Notes under the pieces: generated by a model
What the model was told of the DNA's origin: nothing
What the model saw: the letters and a program-made list of their open reading frames with translations, nothing else
Databases searched by the model: none
Part shown: positions 3,831-18,901 of the stretch, piece by piece
How positions within the stretch are numbered: position 1 is the stretch's first letter
Layout: each line of letters starts with the position of its first letter
Source of the DNA: Intestinibacillus massiliensis
GTDB lineage: Bacteria; Bacillota; Clostridia; Oscillospirales; Butyricicoccaceae
Assembly (NCBI RefSeq): GCF_900155735.1
Contig: NZ_LT707059.1
Span: forward strand, 325,839 to 359,464
Direction: 5' to 3'
Length of the DNA stretch: 33,626 nucleotides
Program-made: the position numbers and the translations under genes

Positions 3831-3907
3831 CGAGGTGTGGCTCAGCTTGGTAGAGCGCTTCGTTCGGGACGAAGAGGCCGCAGGTTCAAATCCTGTCACC
3901 TCGACCA
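3831..3907 (+). tRNA. tRNA-Pro, anticodon CGG
   Basis: A 77-base cloverleaf with encoded CCA. The acceptor stem is CGAGGTG pairing CACCTCG, with unpaired A then CCA. The D arm contains GCTCAGCTTGGTAGAGC. The anticodon stem CTTCG/CGAAG (3858-3862, 3870-3874) encloses TTCGGGA, so the anticodon is CGG at 3865-3867, decoding CCG. The T arm contains GGTTCAAATCC. It stands alone between its own promoter and terminator. A dedicated CCG reader fits the high GC of this genome. Confidence 0.97.
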
Positions 3908-7000: not shown

Positions 7001-7415
7001 GTACCTTGCCGCCGGTCATAGTGATTTTTGTGTTGCCTGTGTGACCGGCGCTCTTGCTGCCGCCGTAGATAGGATATGCCGAGAGGTCGGCGTCGTCCGC
7101 TGGCGCATTGGTAATACCTAGTGCCGCAAGGGACTGCTCCCCGCTGTCCAGCACACCGTCCCCGTCCGCGTCTACATAGACGGTGGTCTTGGTGGGGGTG
7201 GTGGTGCTGTCGCCGGCGATGATCAGCGCCGCGCCGTTGGCGAAAATGTACTTGATCCCCCCAAAGGTCTCCACCGTGGGCGCGGCGGGCGTATCCTCCG
7301 CCCGCGCCTCCATGGGGAGCATGGCCAGCACCAGGCAGGCCGCCAGAGCCGAGGCCATAACGCGGCGTGTGTGCCGCCGGATAGCCTGAGCCAGCTTCTT
7401 CATTGTTTGTTCCAT
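4041..7415 (-). CDS. Large SLH-anchored surface protein with Y-G-G-G repeats
   Basis: A 1124-residue exported cell-wall protein. The ATG at 7415 follows AGGAGG by 9 bases; a second ATG four codons on is possible. Domains in order: signal peptide (about 1-39, ending A-R-A); an N-terminal segment with a D-A-D-G-D-G-V-L-D calcium-loop-like motif (about 78-90); about ten 20-35-residue repeats built on VYGGG...G(N/D)T.VTVSG (about 135-410), probably a right-handed beta-solenoid; a putative Ig domain of the He_PIG type, with LPDGTIGTAYS and ISGTP (about 510-598); a carboxypeptidase-regulatory/Cna-B-like domain (about 600-690); a Ser-rich linker; a bacterial-repeat domain with GGSISPSG and GYVVDDVLVDG (about 862-930); and three SLH domains (about 945-1120) that bind wall polysaccharide. 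No sortase motif. It lies 36 bases after a small gene and is probably co-transcribed with it. Adhesion or S-layer function is inferred. Confidence 0.9.
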   Translation of the reverse strand: MEQTMKKLAQAIRRHTRRVMASALAACLVLAMLPMEARAEDTPAAPTVETFGGIKYIFANGAALIIAGDSTTTPTKTTVYVDADGDGVLDSGEQSLAALGITNAPADDADLSAYPIYGGSKSAGHTGNTKITMTGGKVHSIFGGGYKGDVTGNTEVTVGEGAVVYNNVYGGGYMGNVSGNTVVTVSGTARRVYGGGESSGAKTTAVGTAGANNTVKVTVSGTASSVYGGGTNHNQINGDTEVTVSGTVSGSVYGGGDFYSPVTGGTAVTISGTVKGSVYGGVDDGSANQNTAVTITDGAVTGNVYGGGNEGSVTQDTNVTITGSTVGGGVYGGGFTDSGTADVGGTATIRVTGNSQVASINGGGAIRYFGSAAVANAAITVADSTVTGSIYGGGANGATVTGTRTVTVGGSAKIGATDGENSYGVTINGGSGGTEVTNGVDSFKIDPSLTDNASVDVVLPAGYATGTIATGAVQADLAKIHLTGNGATGKTAAFENNTIVVKLSTTPPTGDAPTITTTSLPDGTIGTAYSQALAATSGTAITWSVASGSLPAGLSLNGSTGVISGTPTAAGTSSFTVKAENSAGSATKALSITISKPHYSISGSVMDSYAANLSGTVQLVQWGRVLQTVALGSTPCAFTFSGVAPGIYTLVATNTKGGTGSTCMTDTQQVTVADRDVTDVAMGWDHRFYVSSEVEVTGGTPPVSVGGLEQVAALIPNTQGSTAYTVKLTAEAVDAPADKAEIDAHAAGKAMDLYLDLSLLLLKDDSVIENLADAKGKVLGITVPYDFTDKQDVTVYRKHGSEAAQALMQNDSGDDGTFSLDRENGCIHIYASKFSTYAVGYIPVVTPPEPNPSHSSSGSGASSSTITATAGTGGSISPSGKVRVSRNSSKSFTIQPADGYVVDDVLVDGKSVGAVERYTFEKVTKAHTIAASFREETGKAAWNPFTDVREGDWFYDSVKYAYGHSLMLGTSPSAFSPEASTERGMIVTVLWRMEGQPEAAGIHAFTDVGSGAYYADAVAWADGNGIVLGYGDGKFGPEDTITREQLAAILWRYAQYKGKDVGAGGTLERFTDAAAVSGYAQEAMRWATGQGILSGKGDGILDPMGQATRAETAAMLMRYLQGGS
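6190..7010 (-). repeat. Degenerate tandem repeat inside the SLH gene (Y-G-G-G units)
   Basis: About ten units of 60-105 bases are visible by the recurring plus-strand CCGCCGCCGTA (minus-strand TACGGCGGCGG, Y-G-G-G) followed by a G-N/D-T and V-T-V-S-G block. Units vary in length and sequence, and one has Y-G-G-V. Copy number could vary between strains. Confidence 0.75.
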
Positions 7416-7451
7416 CCGTTTCTTCCTCCTTTATCGTAATCCCTTGTTGTT

Positions 7452-7691
7452 TCACTTTTTTGGGTACTGGCAGATGCCGACCTCCAACGCCTTGTCCTGC
7501 CCCAGGTGGAAGTCCGCAAAGGCGCAGCACCAGCACTCATGGTCGGGATTGGCCAGCAGCGTGTACCGCCGCGCCGTCCAGCAGGGGCAGCCCTGGTGGG
7601 GCCATACGCTCTCGCCGGGCTTTGGCGCGGGGAACAGCTCGTATTCCGGCTGCCCCTTGTAAATCGTGCGCAGGTCGATCTTTTCCACCAC
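7452..7691 (-). CDS. Small Cys/Trp-rich protein upstream of the SLH gene
   Basis: A 79-residue protein starting at GTG 7691, with AAGGAGG 7 bases upstream, an excellent site. It has no signal peptide or membrane helix, so it is probably cytoplasmic. Visible features are an acidic/aromatic N-terminal segment (DLRTIYKGQPEYELFPAPKP), H-Q-G-C-P-C-W near 32-38, an R-R-Y-T-L-L-A-N-P stretch and then H-E-C-W-C-C near 51-56, before F-A-D-F-H-L-G-Q-D. The two Cys clusters could bind a metal, but the spacing matches no zinc-finger family I know. I do not recognise the family. The strong ribosome binding site and 36-base spacing to the SLH gene support a real gene co-transcribed with it. Confidence 0.7.
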   Translation of the reverse strand: MVEKIDLRTIYKGQPEYELFPAPKPGESVWPHQGCPCWTARRYTLLANPDHECWCCAFADFHLGQDKALEVGICQYPKK

Positions 7692-7840
7692 ACCACCTCC
7701 TTGGTGTCCTGGGCTTGCGCGCCGCTGCGTGAAAGGGGGCGCTGGGGCTTGCCTTACGCCGTGTTCCCGTCATTTTTACTGTCTCGCACCTCCTGTTTGA
7801 TAATAGGCATACCTTTTGTCAAAACATCTTTTCCGCATGG

Positions 7841-7866
7841 GAGCCTTGAAAAAGGCTCTTTTTTTT
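7841..7866 (+). terminator. Terminator-like hairpin upstream of the response-regulator promoter
   Basis: GAGCCTT (7841-7847), loop GAAA, AAGGCTC (7852-7858) and eight T (7859-7866) make a convincing plus-strand terminator. No plus-strand gene precedes it: 7692-7840 holds no supportable gene on either strand. It may insulate the regulator promoter that starts 24 bases later, or be a remnant. Confidence 0.65.
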
Positions 7867-7889
7867 GTCCAAAATGCCGATTGCACCGT

Positions 7890-7918
7890 TTGACAAAGAG
7901 TATAAGTTTCGTTAAAAT
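7890..7918 (+). promoter_or_regulatory. Promoter of the LytTR regulator / kinase operon
   Basis: TTGACA (7890-7895), 17-bp spacer, TAAAAT (7913-7918): a near-consensus promoter giving a leader of about 115 bases before the regulator start. Confidence 0.8.
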
Positions 7919-7938
7919 GGATGAAAGGTTCTGCCTGT

Positions 7939-7967
7939 ATTGTAGCGTATATTTGGGGAAGCGGCGC
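7939..7967 (-). promoter_or_regulatory. Predicted activator-dependent promoter of the surface-protein operon
   Basis: On the minus strand, TACAAT occupies 7944-7939. The -35 position at 17 bp (7967-7962) reads GCGCCG, which is not a -35 element, so the promoter would need an activator. Two LytTR-type repeats start just upstream, at about -41 to -72 relative to the inferred start near 7932. The resulting leader to the small Cys-rich gene is about 240 bases. Confidence 0.45.
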
Positions 7968-7972
7968 ACGTT

Positions 7973-8004
7973 ACACGTACTTTGTATCTGAAAACACGTA
8001 CTTT
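7973..8004 (-). promoter_or_regulatory. Two LytTR-type direct repeats, 21 bp apart
   Basis: The 11-base word ACACGTACTTT occurs exactly twice, at 7973-7983 and 7994-8004, two helical turns apart. On the minus strand each reads AAAGTACGTGT, whose first nine bases match the published LytTR consensus [TA][AC][CA]GTTN[AG][TG] at eight positions. They lie next to a LytTR regulator gene. Confidence 0.7.
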
Positions 8005-8038
8005 ACATAAAGCGATGGAAAAAAGGGGAGGGGGAAGC

Positions 8039-8794
8039 ATGGTGCAGATTGCCCTGTGCGACGACAACATCCAGGAACTGGAATGGATTGGGCGGCTGGT
8101 CTCGGGGTATCTCGCCGGGCGGCCGGAACTGGACGGCTCCCTGCGGCGCTTCCAGTCGGCATATGACCTGATGGACTGCATCCGGGAGCGGGGCGGGTTT
8201 GACGCCTACCTGCTGGACGTGATGATGCCCCACATGAACGGGATTGAGCTGGGGCAGGCCATCCGGGAGGCGGGCGGCAAGTCGCCTATCGTCTATCTTA
8301 CCTCGTCCCCGGACTATGCGGTGCAGTCCTACCGGGTGCGGGCATATGACTATCTCCTAAAGCCCGTGGCCGCAGACGCGCTGGCCGCCCTGCTGGACAA
8401 GCTGGCGGCAGAGCTGCAAGAGCGCCGGGAGACGCCGCTGCTGGTGCGCACCAGGGATCAAGTGACGCCCGTCCATCCCGGCGAGCTGCTCTATGTCCGG
8501 GTGCGGGACCATGTGCTGGAATACCATATGGCGGACGGCTCGGTGGTGGAGAGCGGCACCATGCGGGAGCCGCTGGATCAAACTGCCGCGCCGCTGCTGG
8601 GGGACGGGCGGTTCGTAAAGATTAACGTCAGTTATATCGTCAACATGAGCTTTGTGCAAAAGCTGGCCGGGGGCAGCTTCCTCATGCGGGACGGCACGGT
8701 GCTGAATATCTCCCGCGCCCTGGCAGCCTCGGTCAGGGAAACCTATATCGAATACATCTTAGAGCGGGGCAAGCTGCCCCAAATCGGCGTATAG
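8039..8794 (+). CDS. LytTR-family response regulator (AgrA/LytR type)
   Basis: A 251-residue cytoplasmic transcription factor. The ATG at 8039 is preceded by GGGGAGGGGG; reading further upstream would run into the repeats. The receiver domain (about 1-120) has the acidic pair D8-D9, phospho-acceptor D60 in the stretch YLLDVMMPHMNG, T88 and K108 in YLLKP. The C-terminal half (about 145-245) is a LytTR DNA-binding domain, with the pattern L-Y-V-R-V-R-D-H...Y, a G-R-F-V-K-I-N-V-S-Y-I-V-N core and R-D-G-T-V-L-N-I-S. All phosphorylation residues are present. The kinase gene begins 11 bases downstream, so they form one two-component operon. Target sites are probably the 21-bp-spaced repeats at 7973-8004. 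Confidence 0.95.
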   Translation: MVQIALCDDNIQELEWIGRLVSGYLAGRPELDGSLRRFQSAYDLMDCIRERGGFDAYLLDVMMPHMNGIELGQAIREAGGKSPIVYLTSSPDYAVQSYRVRAYDYLLKPVAADALAALLDKLAAELQERRETPLLVRTRDQVTPVHPGELLYVRVRDHVLEYHMADGSVVESGTMREPLDQTAAPLLGDGRFVKINVSYIVNMSFVQKLAGGSFLMRDGTVLNISRALAASVRETYIEYILERGKLPQIGV

Positions 8795-10695: not shown

Positions 10696-10767
10696 TTCCT
10701 GCTTTGTTTATATGCCGGGATGTAAAAATGGGATAAAATGATTGCGGTGCGGAAAAGGGGGGCGCTT

Positions 10768-11802
10768 ATGTTTGCCACAGGCATGTATCCTACGGGAGAC
10801 GCAAAGCTTGATGAATATATCCAAGACTGTTTTATCGGCATGATTGAAATGGAAGTTTTAGACCATTTAAATTCTTGCTGGGACAAAAAGGGATCCCCGG
10901 AGGAGTATTTGGACGGGATTTTCCCACGCGCGTTTATCTACCGGAACCCACAAAAAGCGGTTGAAATTATCTATGATTTGGATGATATTGCGCGCAGCCC
11001 TGTCGTCCGGGAAAGCCTGCCGCCGCTGCACCTGTATGCAATGTATCGCATTATCCGCGACTATGAGGCGTTCAAAAACGATATGGGGGCGACGGAATAC
11101 GACCAGGAGGTCGAAAGCTATATCCGCGGCCATTATACAAAAGAGGACGCCGATTGGTATTGCTTTTTCTTTGCGGAACCGTCTGAAATCTTCGTGGAAC
11201 AATATGACGACGAATATATCTGGCTCGACCTATGGGAGCACCGCTTTGTCTGGTATTTAAACCATCCGGAGGAATTCCCGGTATTGACGCCCCAGGCGGA
11301 GGAAATGCTACAGCTCATGCCAAACGATATCTTGGAGATGTGGAGGCTTTGCGAAAAAATGCACAAGGATAAACCGTCCGGCGTTTACAACGAATATGAT
11401 TTTTTCGTGTCACATGCCACGGAGGATAAAAAAGCGGTTGCGGAACCCCTGGCGCTGGAATTGCGTGCAATGGGGGCAAAGGTTTGGCTGGATAAATTTG
11501 AGATGACTGTAGGCAGCAGCCTGCGCACTTCCATTGATTACGGGATTGCGCATTCAAAGCATGGGATTATTATCTTATCAAAAAACTATATGCGTAAGTT
11601 TTGGACGGAAAAGGAAATGAACGCCCTTTTTGCGAAATTATCGTTGGATGATAAAAACAGTAAAATCCTGCTCCCGCTGTGGCATGGCGTCACCCGGGAG
11701 GAGGTCGCACAGTATTCCCCTATGATGGCGGATTTATTAGCGCTGGATACCGGATGCTTCACAATCCATGAGTTGGCGGAAGAGCTGTTCCGCGTGCTGT
11801 AA
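10768..11802 (+). CDS. TIR-domain protein with unrecognised N-terminal domain (probable NADase-type defence effector)
   Basis: A 344-residue cytoplasmic protein from ATG 10768, which follows GGGGGG by 7 bases; an ATG at 10738 has no good site. The C-terminal TIR domain (about 210-330) shows YDFFVSHATEDK, then K-V-W-L-D-K-F-E with G-S-S-L-R-x-S-I-D, then I-I-I-L-S-K-N-Y, and W279-T-E-K-E283-M, whose last Glu is at the position of the catalytic Glu of NAD-cleaving TIR enzymes. The first ~205 residues are helical, acidic and rich in Trp/Tyr/Phe, with no family I recognise; they may sense a trigger. Bacterial TIR proteins commonly act in anti-phage abortive infection, alone or with ThsA, STING or Argonaute partners, none of which is visible here. 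GC is about 40-43% in sampled stretches against about 70% in the preceding gene, suggesting horizontal transfer. I see no clear promoter in the 72-base gap. Confidence 0.86.
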   Translation: MFATGMYPTGDAKLDEYIQDCFIGMIEMEVLDHLNSCWDKKGSPEEYLDGIFPRAFIYRNPQKAVEIIYDLDDIARSPVVRESLPPLHLYAMYRIIRDYEAFKNDMGATEYDQEVESYIRGHYTKEDADWYCFFFAEPSEIFVEQYDDEYIWLDLWEHRFVWYLNHPEEFPVLTPQAEEMLQLMPNDILEMWRLCEKMHKDKPSGVYNEYDFFVSHATEDKKAVAEPLALELRAMGAKVWLDKFEMTVGSSLRTSIDYGIAHSKHGIIILSKNYMRKFWTEKEMNALFAKLSLDDKNSKILLPLWHGVTREEVAQYSPMMADLLALDTGCFTIHELAEELFRVL

Positions 11803-14380: not shown

Positions 14381-16720
14381 TTATTCTGTGACAGTCACAG
14401 TGCAGGTTGCAGTTTTCTCCCCGTCTTCTGTGGTAACAGTGATGGTCGCTGTTCCGGCAGAAACGGCCGTAACCACGCCGTTATCGACGGTTGCTATCTC
14501 GTTATCGCTGGAAGACCAGGTAACATTTTTGTTGGTAGCATTTTCGGGCTTGAATTTTGCATTTAGCTTTGCAGATTGTTGATTCTCGTCGCTCGTTGAA
14601 AGATTGAGAGATGTAGTATCAAGGGTTACATCTTCTACAGGAATGGCTTTAGGTGGTTCGTCAGCTTTTACAGTAACAATACAGGTTGCGGATTGATCCC
14701 CTGCTGTAGCAGTAATAGTGGCTGTACCCGCAGCGACAGCGCTGACCACACCGCCCGCCACAGTTGCGATCTTTTCATCGCTGGAAGACCAAGTTACCGT
14801 TTTGTCAGCATTGCCCGTAGCTTGTACAGTTGCCGTTAATGTGTTAGTTTCGCCTTTTTCAAGGGATAGGCTGCTTGCACTAAGAGAAATTTTAGTAACG
14901 ATATCAGTTTCGGACTTAACGGTAACTGTGCACTGTGCGGTTTTACCGCCATCGTTTGTTTTCACCGTAATAGTCGCGTTGCCATTTTTAACAGCAGTCA
15001 CCTTGCCGTTCGCGTCTACCGTGGCAATGTTAGCGTCGCTGGAAGTCCAGGAAACTTTTGGGTTAGAAGCATTTGTTGGCGCAACAGTTGCGGTGAGCTG
15101 TTCCGAATTGCCTTCAACCAGGCTTAAGGTGGTGGGAGTCAAGGTGACGCCGGTCACGCTTACCGTAGAGGAAGAACCCGTAACCGTAATTTTGCAGGTT
15201 GCGGATTTGCCGCTGCCGTCATTTGCTTTTGCGGTAATGGTGGCGGTGCCGGCCTTCACGCCCTTAACTACGCCGCTGTCGCTGACCGTTGCAATATTGG
15301 TGTTATTGGAAGACCAAGTAACCGTTTTGTTCGTTGCATCCGAGGGGCTGACAGTCGCGGTAAGGTCAACCGTTTTATCGACCGCAACGCTAGCGGAAGC
15401 TGGGGAGATGGAAACGCCTGTTACCTTGGTGCTGTTTTCCACCGTCACTTTGTCCGTAACCGTAATGGTGCTGTTTTTGCCGCTTTCCAGTTTGGAAATC
15501 GTACCGCTGCCCTTGATGGTTGCACTGGAACGGGAATTCGGCGTCAGGGTGCTGATCGTACCGTTTACCGTAAGCGTCGTGCCGGTTGCGCTGCTGTCCA
15601 GCGTCAGGGTGGAGACGGTGACGCTGGATTCGATGGTAACCTTAAGGTTTTTGCTCTCGATCACAACATCGCTGATCTTTGGGTTGCTGCTGTTCTTCGC
15701 AATTGTCGTATCGTTTTGAATGCGCAGGTTCCCCTTGATGGAAGTGTCCTTGTCAAATTTCAGCGCAACGATTTCGCTGCCGCTGCTGCTGCTTTTGTCG
15801 GAAACCACATCGCCGTCAATCTGGCAGTCTGTAAAAACGATGGAGTTTTGGCCGCCGCCGTAAACGTAAATATCGCCCTTGACACGCACGTCTTCCAAAG
15901 TAACGGAACCATTCTTGACGTCGCCCGTAATGGTAAGGTCGCCCTCGGCGGTGATGTTTTTAAGCTTTGCGCCGGAGACCTTAATGTCGATGTCGTTATA
16001 AGTGCCGCCGCTGTAGGATTTTTTGCTGGAATCGACCGTCAGGTTGTCCGCGCTGCTGGTCGGCTTGTTGGCGTTGTTGTTATTGTTTTGATTGTTATTG
16101 TTGTTCGACGAAGATTCGCTCCGGCGGGAGGACAGCGCCTTGTTGATCGCGACGACCGCCTCGGCGCGCGTCAGCGGCTTGCCCGGCCCGAACGAGTTGT
16201 CCGGATAGCCGTTCATCACTTCGGCCAGCGACGCGGCGCGGACATACGGCTTTGCCCAGCTGGAAATGGAAGCGTCGTCGGTAAAGGCGGTTTCGGAGGA
16301 CGAAATTTTGAGGTTGTCCACCTTGGCCAGCATGACGGCCGCCTGTTCACGTGTCAGCGGCTTGTCCGGCTGGAACGTGCCGTCCGAATTACCGGAGATG
16401 TAGCCGTTGCCTACGCCCTTCTGGATTTCCGCATAGGCCCAATAATCGCTTTTAACGTCGGAAAAAGTGGCGGAAGAACCGGATGTGAAGCCAAATGCGT
16501 TATTGACCAGCTTCACCATTTCTGCGCGCGTCACCTTGTTGTCCGGTTTGAATGTACCGTCCGGATAGCCGCTGATGCGGCCGCTGTCAATCCAGGACTG
16601 GATCGTAGATTGTGCCCAGTGGCCGTTTATGTCCTTAACGGCGGCAGCCCCTGCGGGCAGCGTACCGAGCAGGGTGACGGCGGCGAGTACCGCGGCCAAC
16701 CCCTTTGTCCCTTTTTTCAT
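14381..16720 (-). CDS. SLH-anchored surface protein with beta-solenoid and Big_2 Ig-like domains
   Basis: A 779-residue exported wall-bound protein. ATG at 16720 follows AGGAGGG by about 10 bases. Order: signal peptide (1-27, ending G-A-A-A); three SLH domains (about 30-200, each with I-S-G-Y/N-x-D-G-T-F-x-P-D and T-R-A/E), so the wall anchor is N-terminal here, opposite to the other SLH protein; an Asn-rich linker with two five-Asn runs (about 203-217); a segment of short beta repeats such as LTITGDVKNGSVTLEDV (about 225-430), solenoid-like; and four or five bacterial Ig-like Big_2 domains (about 432-779) marked by V-T-W-S-S-x-x-x-x-I-A-T-V and G-T-A-T-I-T. The only Cys residues apart from one in the solenoid recur at the same place in each Ig repeat. 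Likely adhesion or matrix scaffolding. GC is lower than in neighbours, mainly from Ser/Thr/Asn codons. Confidence 0.9.
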   Translation of the reverse strand: MKKGTKGLAAVLAAVTLLGTLPAGAAAVKDINGHWAQSTIQSWIDSGRISGYPDGTFKPDNKVTRAEMVKLVNNAFGFTSGSSATFSDVKSDYWAYAEIQKGVGNGYISGNSDGTFQPDKPLTREQAAVMLAKVDNLKISSSETAFTDDASISSWAKPYVRAASLAEVMNGYPDNSFGPGKPLTRAEAVVAINKALSSRRSESSSNNNNNQNNNNNANKPTSSADNLTVDSSKKSYSGGTYNDIDIKVSGAKLKNITAEGDLTITGDVKNGSVTLEDVRVKGDIYVYGGGQNSIVFTDCQIDGDVVSDKSSSSGSEIVALKFDKDTSIKGNLRIQNDTTIAKNSSNPKISDVVIESKNLKVTIESSVTVSTLTLDSSATGTTLTVNGTISTLTPNSRSSATIKGSGTISKLESGKNSTITVTDKVTVENSTKVTGVSISPASASVAVDKTVDLTATVSPSDATNKTVTWSSNNTNIATVSDSGVVKGVKAGTATITAKANDGSGKSATCKITVTGSSSTVSVTGVTLTPTTLSLVEGNSEQLTATVAPTNASNPKVSWTSSDANIATVDANGKVTAVKNGNATITVKTNDGGKTAQCTVTVKSETDIVTKISLSASSLSLEKGETNTLTATVQATGNADKTVTWSSSDEKIATVAGGVVSAVAAGTATITATAGDQSATCIVTVKADEPPKAIPVEDVTLDTTSLNLSTSDENQQSAKLNAKFKPENATNKNVTWSSSDNEIATVDNGVVTAVSAGTATITVTTEDGEKTATCTVTVTE

Positions 16721-17247: not shown

Positions 17248-17937
17248 TTACAGGAAAATTGCCACGACCGATGCGACAAGCGCCGTAATCAGCCCCGCGA
17301 CGCCGATCGCAAGCCCGCTCATCGCGCCTTCCGTTTCGCCCAGCTCAATGGCGCGCGACGTACCGACCGCGTGGGAGGAGGTGCCGATCGCAATGCCGGT
17401 GGTGACCGGATGGTTCACGCCGAGCTTTTTCAGGAAGCCAGGCAGGCAGACCGCGCCGAACAGGCCGGTAACAATGATGGCGATCGCCGTAATCGACGGC
17501 ACGCCGCCGAGCGAACGGGCGACCTCGACGCCAATCGGCGTGGTGACCGATTTGGGCAGCAGGGAAGCGATGACCGAGCTGTCCAGCCCAAACAGCTTGC
17601 ACAGCACAAATACGCTGCCCATGGAGGCGAGCGAACCGACGAACGCGCCCAGCAAGATGGGCAGCAGGTGCTTTTTTAGCGTTCCGAGCTGCCGGTAGAT
17701 CGGGATGGCGAGCGCGACGGTGGCGGGCGTCAGGAACATCGAGATAAACGCGCCGCCGGTATTGTAGGTTTCTGTCGAGGTGCCGGTGGCGACCAGCAGG
17801 GCGCACATCAGCACCATGGCGATCAGCAGCGGGTTGGCGACCGGCGTTTTCAGCCTGCGGTTGGCCAGCAGGCCAATTTCATAGGAAAGTACTGAAAGCG
17901 CCAGCCAGGCGAGCGGGGAAGTCAGTACGTCTTTCAT
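17248..17937 (-). CDS. lrgB: LrgB/CidB family membrane protein
   Basis: A 229-residue integral membrane protein with about six or seven helices. ATG at 17937 overlaps the lrgA stop as ATGA. Family features are N-P-L-L-I-A near 36, F-L-T-P-A-T-V-A-L-A-I-P-I-Y (about 68-81), P-K-S-V-T-T-P-I-G (about 128-136) and G-x-x-S-H-A-V-G-T (about 186-194). LrgA/LrgB pairs were described as murein-hydrolase and lysis modulators. The Bacillus subtilis relative PftAB (YsbAB) forms a pyruvate transporter controlled by the LytST two-component system, so a small-carboxylate transport role is equally possible. Translationally coupled with lrgA; last gene of the operon. Confidence 0.93.
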   Translation of the reverse strand: MKDVLTSPLAWLALSVLSYEIGLLANRRLKTPVANPLLIAMVLMCALLVATGTSTETYNTGGAFISMFLTPATVALAIPIYRQLGTLKKHLLPILLGAFVGSLASMGSVFVLCKLFGLDSSVIASLLPKSVTTPIGVEVARSLGGVPSITAIAIIVTGLFGAVCLPGFLKKLGVNHPVTTGIAIGTSSHAVGTSRAIELGETEGAMSGLAIGVAGLITALVASVVAIFL

Positions 17938-18347
17938 GAAAGCGTCGCCTCCTCGCTATGTACCGTTTCGGCGGGGACGGCAGTCTCCACAGGGGCGCGC
18001 CGCGCCTGCATCTTCAGGACGAGATGGACGGTGCCGGCGGTCACGGCCGCCGTGATGAGCGTCGTCAGGATAATGACCGCGAGGATGGGCACAAGCTGGG
18101 ACTTGATCTGGGGGAAAACGTCCAGGATGCCGAGGCAGGCCGGCAGAAAGAAGAACGCCATATTTTTCAGGAAGAAGTCTGCGGCTTCTTCCACGTGGCT
18201 TAGCTTGATTACGCCAAAGGCCAGCAGGATAAATAACAGGCTCATGCCGAGCACATTGCCCGGCAGCTTGCCCGCGCACAGCACGGAGAGCAGGTCGCCG
18301 GCGACGCACAGGGCAAAGAGAATTGCGAGTTGTCTCAAGTATTTCAC
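17934..18347 (-). CDS. lrgA: LrgA/CidA family membrane protein
   Basis: A 137-residue membrane protein with four predicted helices (about 5-23, 31-49, 64-82, 88-112), holin-like in size. The start is GTG at 18347, overlapping the DUF4364 stop as GTGA, so translation is coupled. The G-N-V-L-G-M-S-L-L-F (about 29-38) and F-F-L-P-A-C-L-G-I (about 71-79) stretches are typical of the CidA/LrgA family (usual F-x-P-A-x-V-G). It is thought to work in a complex with LrgB in the cytoplasmic membrane. The C-terminal tail is charged and cytoplasmic, and is a little longer than usual. Confidence 0.92.
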   Translation of the reverse strand: MKYLRQLAILFALCVAGDLLSVLCAGKLPGNVLGMSLLFILLAFGVIKLSHVEEAADFFLKNMAFFFLPACLGILDVFPQIKSQLVPILAVIILTTLITAAVTAGTVHLVLKMQARRAPVETAVPAETVHSEEATLS

Positions 18348-18901
18348 AGCGCGGGGTCATCTTCCTTTTCTTCTTCGTAGTTTTGGGTCAACGCGTCGAG
18401 CAGCACATGGTAAATCTTTTCCGCGTTTTTGCGGAACCGGCGTTCCAGCAGGGACGCCTGCGCACGGCTTACCACATGCATGCGGATGGAAAAGACCTCC
18501 TCAAGGCCAAGCTCGACGACCAGGTCGTTATCGGCGCAAGGCTCGACGCTGGTCGAGATCGCGGCGTCCCGCCGCAGCGCGCGCACGACCCGCAGCGCGG
18601 ACGCCTGCGCGGATTCGCGTACGGTATAGGGCAGGCTGGTTTCGAACAGTTCGGCGGTTTCCCGGCCCATGGCAGTGATGCGGTAGAGCGGTTCGCCTTC
18701 CCCGGGCGCACGTTCGATATGGCCGGTCTCGACCATTTCGTAAAACGCCTCCTGCAGCTCAAAATAACTGAAGCCGTCGTCGCACCAGGTGCAGATATCG
18801 ACAACCGATTCAAAGCTGACCGGGAAATCCAGGAAGCCCATGGAGTACAGCACCAGGAATTTGATGTCTTCCTTGGTGCGGATAAAGCCGTAGCGTACCA
18901 A
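18344..18901 (-). CDS. DUF4364 family protein, winged-helix-like, first gene of the lrg operon
   Basis: A 185-residue cytoplasmic protein. The start is TTG at 18901, with AAAGGAGG 9 bases upstream; the resulting N-terminus, followed by Y-G-F-I-x-T-K-E-D-I-K-F-L, fits the family. The N-terminal ~85 residues look like a winged helix (F-S-Y-F-E-L-Q-E-A-F-Y-E-M-V-E-T-G-H-I, then a wing Y-R-I-T-A-M-G-R-E), followed by an alpha/beta region ending in an acidic tail E-E-E-K-E-D-D. DUF4364 is widespread in Clostridia and treated as a probable transcriptional regulator. Its 4-base overlap with lrgA suggests it controls or assists the LrgAB pair; I infer this from context only. Confidence 0.9.
   Translation of the reverse strand: MVRYGFIRTKEDIKFLVLYSMGFLDFPVSFESVVDICTWCDDGFSYFELQEAFYEMVETGHIERAPGEGEPLYRITAMGRETAELFETSLPYTVRESAQASALRVVRALRRDAAISTSVEPCADNDLVVELGLEEVFSIRMHVVSRAQASLLERRFRKNAEKIYHVLLDALTQNYEEEKEDDPAL

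Follow-up and report, generated by a model that had tools for sequence, protein, structure and literature searches.

A sensor-controlled LytTR regulator probably turns on its neighbouring surface-protein operon in Intestinibacillus massiliensis

Genes of the locus

The window, that is, the whole stretch of 33,626 nucleotides that was analysed, covers positions 325839-359464 of contig C33 in the 2.84 Mb, 34-contig genome of Intestinibacillus massiliensis. On its plus strand a response regulator gene is followed by a histidine kinase gene, and on its minus strand a gene for a small protein with four conserved cysteines is followed by a gene for a large SLH-domain surface protein (Table 1). VirR is a regulator of the LytTR kind, and the kinase of the AgrA system is of the GHKL type. 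The receiver and LytTR domains of the regulator and the GHKL-type kinase adjoining it are both features of an AgrA/VirR-type pair. A crude hydropathy analysis of the kinase showed one membrane segment, a stretch of about 160 residues and six further segments, followed by the GHKL part.

Table 1. Features of the regulator and surface-protein locus, in window coordinates
Feature	Coordinates	Strand	Remarks
Surface protein gene, 1124 aa	4041..7415	-	SLH and He_PIG domains, signal-like N terminus; begins 37 bp past the small gene
Small protein gene, 79 aa	7452..7691	-	GTG start; C35, C53, C56 and C74 conserved in the alignment of relatives
Terminator-like hairpin	7839..7860	+	T-run on plus strand; within the leader of the minus operon; 0.5 expected in shuffles
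Regulator promoter, TTGACA-17-TAAAAT	7890..7918	+	faces the minus promoter; 11/12 in promoter scan
Minus promoter -10 box, TACAAT (ATTGTA on plus)	7939..7944	-	without a -35; predicted start near 7932
Proximal LytTR-type box, AAAGTACGTGT on minus	7973..7983	-	about -51 to -41 from predicted start; exact repeat of the distal box
Distal LytTR-type box, AAAGTACGTGT on minus	7994..8004	-	about -72 to -62 from predicted start; same word as the proximal box, at an offset of 21 bp
LytTR response regulator gene, 251 aa	8039..8794	+	Response_reg 54.9 bits (above cut-off); LytTR 26.3 bits (cut-off 22.6)
GHKL histidine kinase gene, 629 aa	8806..10695	+	HATPase_c_5 35.7 bits (cut-off 22)

The small gene is read in a different frame from a 98-aa ORF at 7400-7696. 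In the right frame, the small four-cysteine protein matched no NCBIfam or Pfam family at the thresholds used and no PDB entry by sequence at E up to 1, and a comparison with PHROGs gave a single weak match (0.012). An AlphaFold2 model, calculated from a 53-row alignment of the window protein and 52 of 74 small proteins, had a mean pLDDT of 49.6 and was set aside as a basis for a fold search.

Several neighbouring genes were also recorded. A TIR-domain gene (10738-11799, plus strand) lies directly behind the kinase gene, with PADLOC matches to PDC-S66 (9e-56) and ThsB (4e-34), and may be directed against phages. At the related locus L059 of Bacilliculturomica massiliensis (Anaerovoracaceae), no counterpart was found by tblastn at E up to 1e-8. 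Just past the end of the surface-protein gene there is a tRNA-Pro (CGG) gene at 3831-3907 on the plus strand, and in the Rfam scan of the window tRNA alone reached the threshold.

A repeat pair and promoters between the divergent genes

Between the regulator gene on the plus strand and the small four-cysteine and SLH genes on the minus strand lie two identical 11-bp words, which read ACACGTACTTT on the plus strand and are offset by 21 bp. As the original prediction had stated, this pair occupies about -41 to -72 of a minus-strand TACAAT that has no usable -35, the best -35-like hexamer at spacers of 15-19 bp matching at 2/6 positions. In its extended context the window -10 reads CGCTACAAT, and the relatives often have an extended -10 of the form TGcTAnAAT. 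The weak minus promoter is thus preceded by direct repeats that are separated by about two turns of the helix, as in a LytTR-activated promoter. The predicted near-consensus promoter of the regulator was also found, facing the minus promoter: a promoter scan of 7700-8060 gave three promoter-like sites, all on the plus strand, and this one scored highest. The hairpin between the regulator promoter and the small gene was considered weak evidence because of the number expected in shuffles (Table 1).

The word AAAGTACGT occurs twice in the window compared to 0.08 expected occurrences, and the pair, when up to three mismatches were allowed, occurs once in the window and in none of 100 window shuffles. 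Shuffling of the region 7692-8038 produced an exactly repeated 11-mer at offset 21 in 1/2000 shuffles and at any offset of 12-40 in 10/2000. The words had also been said to match the LytTR consensus at eight of nine positions. The count holds for the consensus reportedly given by Nikolskaya and Galperin, but it is uninformative on its own, because six words in the same 347 bp reach 8/9, both boxes among them; 261 of 67,236 window positions do so as well.

Elsewhere in the window, an LrgB gene and a 134-aa ORF were seen at 17251-18360 on the minus strand, 9 kb from the LytTR regulator gene. The lrgAB genes are the classical target of LytSR. Upstream of the ORF next to lrgB the best offset-21 pair matches at 8/10 and is G+C-rich, and upstream of a second SLH gene (14384-16720) the offset-21 match is 6/10.

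Conservation of the repeat pair and the facing promoters

The small protein was present in 7 of 87 family genomes (E up to 0.001), in 7 of 394 genomes of an order sample (E up to 1e-6) and at 78 loci in a wider collection of genome contigs, which were labelled mostly Clostridia, with a few labelled Leptolinea, Lentisphaerae or Paenibacillaceae. The 78 loci and seven places from whole genomes made up a sample of 85 places, in which at least one place was counted twice (L051, L062). A related regulator lay near the small gene in 58 of the 85, either divergent within 700 bp (31 places) or on the same strand within 3 kb (27 places), and the remaining 27 had no regulator within those limits. After similar upstream regions were merged, 57 clusters remained (20 divergent, 18 one-strand and 19 without a regulator), and the region upstream of the small gene was searched for its best direct repeat of 10 bp at each offset from 12 to 40.

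Offset 21 alone stood out among the 57 clusters, with a mean best match of 7.91/10 compared to 6.19-6.82 at the other offsets and 6.46 ± 0.11 (sd) in shuffles, where the largest of 60 values was 6.70. A pair matching at 8/10 or better was found at this offset in 34 of the 57 clusters (1-13 clusters at other offsets) and at 9/10 or better in 18 (0-3 at other offsets), while 23 clusters had no offset-21 pair of at least 8/10 upstream of the small gene. Some of the 34 pairs are probably due to chance, since other offsets also reach 8 in 1-13 clusters. The enrichment was seen in all three arrangements before merging (means of 7.58, 8.33 and 7.93), and removal of the window lineage left 54 clusters in which offset 21 still gave 7.85. 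The box words vary by lineage: the window has AAAGTACGTGT, TTTAAGTGTAAA recurs in many one-strand loci, and GCAAATTnTGCGCA is the consensus of 19 chosen loci, mostly divergent. For LytTR systems of Streptococcus mutans a conserved repeat spacing with variable words is likewise described (PMC6193735). When the relatives were anchored on the -10, both boxes lay at nearly equal distances, a regularity that is partly built in, together with the hexamer and TG features, because the -10 picks were scored on repeat, hexamer and TG; a few picks (e.g. L082, L114 and L143) appear wrong.

A model built from 16 relatives without the window lineage (R2) recovered L065 and L078, two B. massiliensis loci that had been held out. 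It missed the window site, also when run unfiltered, and found no site at the B. massiliensis loci L059 and L060 or in a second copy of the locus on contig C28; the window words have drifted. The lineage-specific words, with the exact window pair in 1 of 87 family genomes, and the miss by R2 would fit a chance repeat or a functionless remnant of a duplicated promoter, but the rarity of such a pair in shuffles of the region (1/2000) and the enrichment of offset 21 in the 54 clusters outside the window lineage make this very improbable. A second model (R1) includes the window and recovers its site by construction. Among 34 further loci, mostly cluster mates of the training set, it placed a site upstream of the small gene in 13, and it gave no site at the one-strand loci of this group. 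Two further R1 matches in the I. massiliensis genome, at C32 (22.9 bits each), at near copies of one secreted protein, showed no clear pair by eye and were discounted.

According to the original prediction, the pair serves the surface operon rather than the promoter of the regulator. In the window, however, the boxes also lie downstream of the strong regulator promoter, at about +48 to +79 of the predicted regulator transcript (about 50-80 bp), as would suit a mainly autoregulatory role, with the surface operon incidental, in which binding of the regulator to its own 5' leader would either repress its synthesis as a roadblock or activate it. The one-strand loci offer a natural test, since there the regulator and the small gene each have an upstream region of their own. 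In the 18 one-strand clusters, offset 21 gave 8.17 upstream of the small gene, with 7/18 clusters at 9 or above, versus 6.89 upstream of the regulator, with 1/18 at 9 or above; the other offsets from 15 to 30 gave 6.28-6.89 on the regulator side. The pair is therefore enriched upstream of the small gene and not of the regulator, and the boxes go with the small-gene operon, as predicted. The exceptions were L117 and L135, in which the best repeat word of the small-gene region is also found with 9 or 10 of 10 matches somewhere upstream of the regulator; in L135 this match is T-rich. The 27 places without a regulator within the limits also keep the enrichment (mean 7.93), and a mainly autoregulatory role is thus unlikely.

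By eye, a terminator-like hairpin, AATGAGYC ... GGCTCATT, followed by a T-run, was seen at about 6770-6830 of L104 and likewise in L118, L120, L121, L126 and L130, which are mostly one-strand loci. The loop of the hairpin is the second box, TTTTAAGTGTAAA, and at loci of this type there may thus be a coupling between binding of the regulator and termination of the kinase transcript. At about 9920 of L057, a related regulator faces a transporter gene, which we take to be CstA-like, with a similar repeat pair and a TATAAT. No small gene was found around this position, and the L057 layout suggests that the arrangement may serve other targets as well.

In the divergent clusters the small-gene -10 could be located in 18 of 20. 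A TTGACA-type promoter pointing the opposite way was found just past this -10 in 14 of the 18, compared to a mean of 0.62 (largest 4) in 200 shuffles. The facing -10 boxes were 7-8 bp apart in 11 of the 18, compared to a shuffle mean of 0.025 (largest 1). In the window and at B. massiliensis L059 the distance is 26 bp, versus the usual 7-8 bp.

The predicted switch, its second copy and known systems

We consider it likely, with a probability of roughly 0.8, that the intergenic region works as a switch in which the regulator binds the boxes, activates the surface operon and the facing promoters interfere with each other. The phosphorylated LytTR regulator would bind as a dimer to both boxes, which lie on the same side of the helix, as 21 bp corresponds to two helical turns, and would recruit RNA polymerase to the minus promoter that lacks a -35. 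This promoter would then drive the small four-cysteine gene and the SLH surface-protein gene. Since the regulator promoter faces and overlaps the minus promoter and the boxes lie inside the regulator transcript, each polymerase should cross or exclude the other, and activation of the surface operon should at the same time dampen regulator synthesis. We infer the signal, phosphorylation, binding, activation and interference, and the facing promoters are read from the DNA sequence.

A genome-wide search for the pair, which the original prediction had proposed as a check, gave two exact pairs, one in the window and one at C28:6229-6258. The same two were the only pairs with up to 3/18 mismatches, but only the two exact pairs are meaningful because a backward control pattern had six matches at this stringency. 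The C28 place shares 787 bp with the window at 96.8% identity and has its own small gene; it is a duplicate and not independent evidence. Its regulator is broken, with a match over residues 1-56 that contains a TAA and a further 137-bp piece at 80%. Of its kinase, the last 626 bp alone are in common with the window (98.7%), and the sensor part is different. The C28 small gene is followed by an ORF of 1717 aa. A second ORF, of 743 aa, overlaps it and has a stretch that is 92.9% DNA-identical to the C-terminal half of the window surface gene. The region at about 4534-14061 of C28 (L010) is a second copy of the module and looks like the result of recombination between surface cassettes. The original prediction of a local loop was thus borne out in so far as the repeats are tied to the adjoining surface operon, but the loop is perhaps not only local because the regulator is broken in the copy that has the second exact pair. 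The intact regulator of the window may be the natural driver of both promoters, in which case the circuit would also act in trans.

At B. massiliensis L059 the regulator is 83%, the kinase 75% and the small protein 83% identical to those of the window, and the matched parts of the surface protein show 37-38% identity. The proximal word at L059 equals that of the window and the distal word differs at 2/10 positions. The B. massiliensis genome resembles that of I. massiliensis in this respect: a regulator is present at L059, and the 14 kb of another locus, L060, contain both words without a regulator; an exact AAGTACGTG pair occurs once in the B. massiliensis genome, at L060. It could be argued that another LytTR regulator of the I. 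massiliensis genome, or another factor, binds the boxes and that the adjacent regulator acts elsewhere. Six LytTR domains in the genome scored above the cut-off, and the LytTR-domain distances and box distances showed no correlation beyond shared ancestry (Mantel partial r of 0.09 for 31 loci and 0.06 for 18). The presence of a related regulator near the small gene in 58 of the 85 places, and the combination of an 83% identical regulator and the same proximal box word in B. massiliensis, speak against this explanation, which we regard as quite improbable.

The promoter mechanism in the predicted switch is of the known LytTR type, as for VirR and AgrA. In VirR/VirS of Clostridium perfringens, a response regulator likewise acts at a pair of direct repeats that share a helix face and have a fixed place upstream of the -35 of the promoter, but the repeats are 7-8 nucleotides apart and the targets are toxin genes; the part of that account at hand mentions neither a small four-cysteine gene nor a facing regulator promoter (PMC2838878). 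AgrA of Staphylococcus aureus is also a LytTR regulator with direct repeats upstream of suboptimally spaced promoters, P2 and P3, although these repeats are described as lying in the agr operon's own intergenic region (PMC4227749). Furthermore, unlike in agr, a Pfam scan found neither AgrB nor AgrD among 18 window proteins, one of which is another frame of the small gene. In the LytTR Regulatory Systems HdrRM and BrsRM of S. mutans, 9-bp repeats 12 bp apart lie upstream of a promoter and drive positive autoregulation, with a membrane inhibitor as the partner of the regulator (PMC6193735). Here, a receiver-LytTR regulator is combined with a kinase, and the repeats are aimed at another operon. 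They lie downstream and not upstream of the regulator promoter, the 18 one-strand clusters showed no regulator-side enrichment, and the gene after the regulator encodes a GHKL kinase domain in place of a membrane inhibitor.

The module and its nested facing promoters appear to be the new part, and no description of them was found in the titles and abstract openings of open-licence papers. As a tentative generalization, which we rate at somewhat less than an even chance, the locus could represent a widespread, mostly clostridial surface-display module, in which a LytTR/GHKL pair is combined with a new family of small four-cysteine proteins that often precede large secreted or S-layer-type proteins. 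Where the module is divergent, with facing, overlapping promoters, turning the surface operon on would physically turn the regulator off. The cargo would be exchanged, with the sensor, the small protein and the promoter geometry retained, and the small protein could serve as a partner in feedback or secretion. This would provide a testable wiring rule, spanning many genera, for the way in which Clostridia of the gut, the rumen and elsewhere may select their large surface proteins. A further gain is a small protein family, unnamed in Pfam and NCBIfam, with a link to LytTR-type control, and the facing promoters form a natural series in which target activation should suppress the activator.

The cargo varies between loci: in 26 of the 57 clusters, the small gene is followed at no more than 120 bp by the start of an ORF of at least 350 aa. 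A Pfam scan of 31 downstream proteins found no family in more than five, in a search where C-terminal domains can be missed because 30 of the 31 were scanned over at most 1150 residues. GLUG was found in five, Big_3_5, the Listeria-Bacteroides repeat, Big_2 and the prepilin methylation motif (N_methyl) in four each, and SLH in three. Downstream of the small gene in L102, L110, L122, L125 and L129 there are ORFs of more than 2100 aa, open at the end of the locus, with a prepilin-like N terminus.
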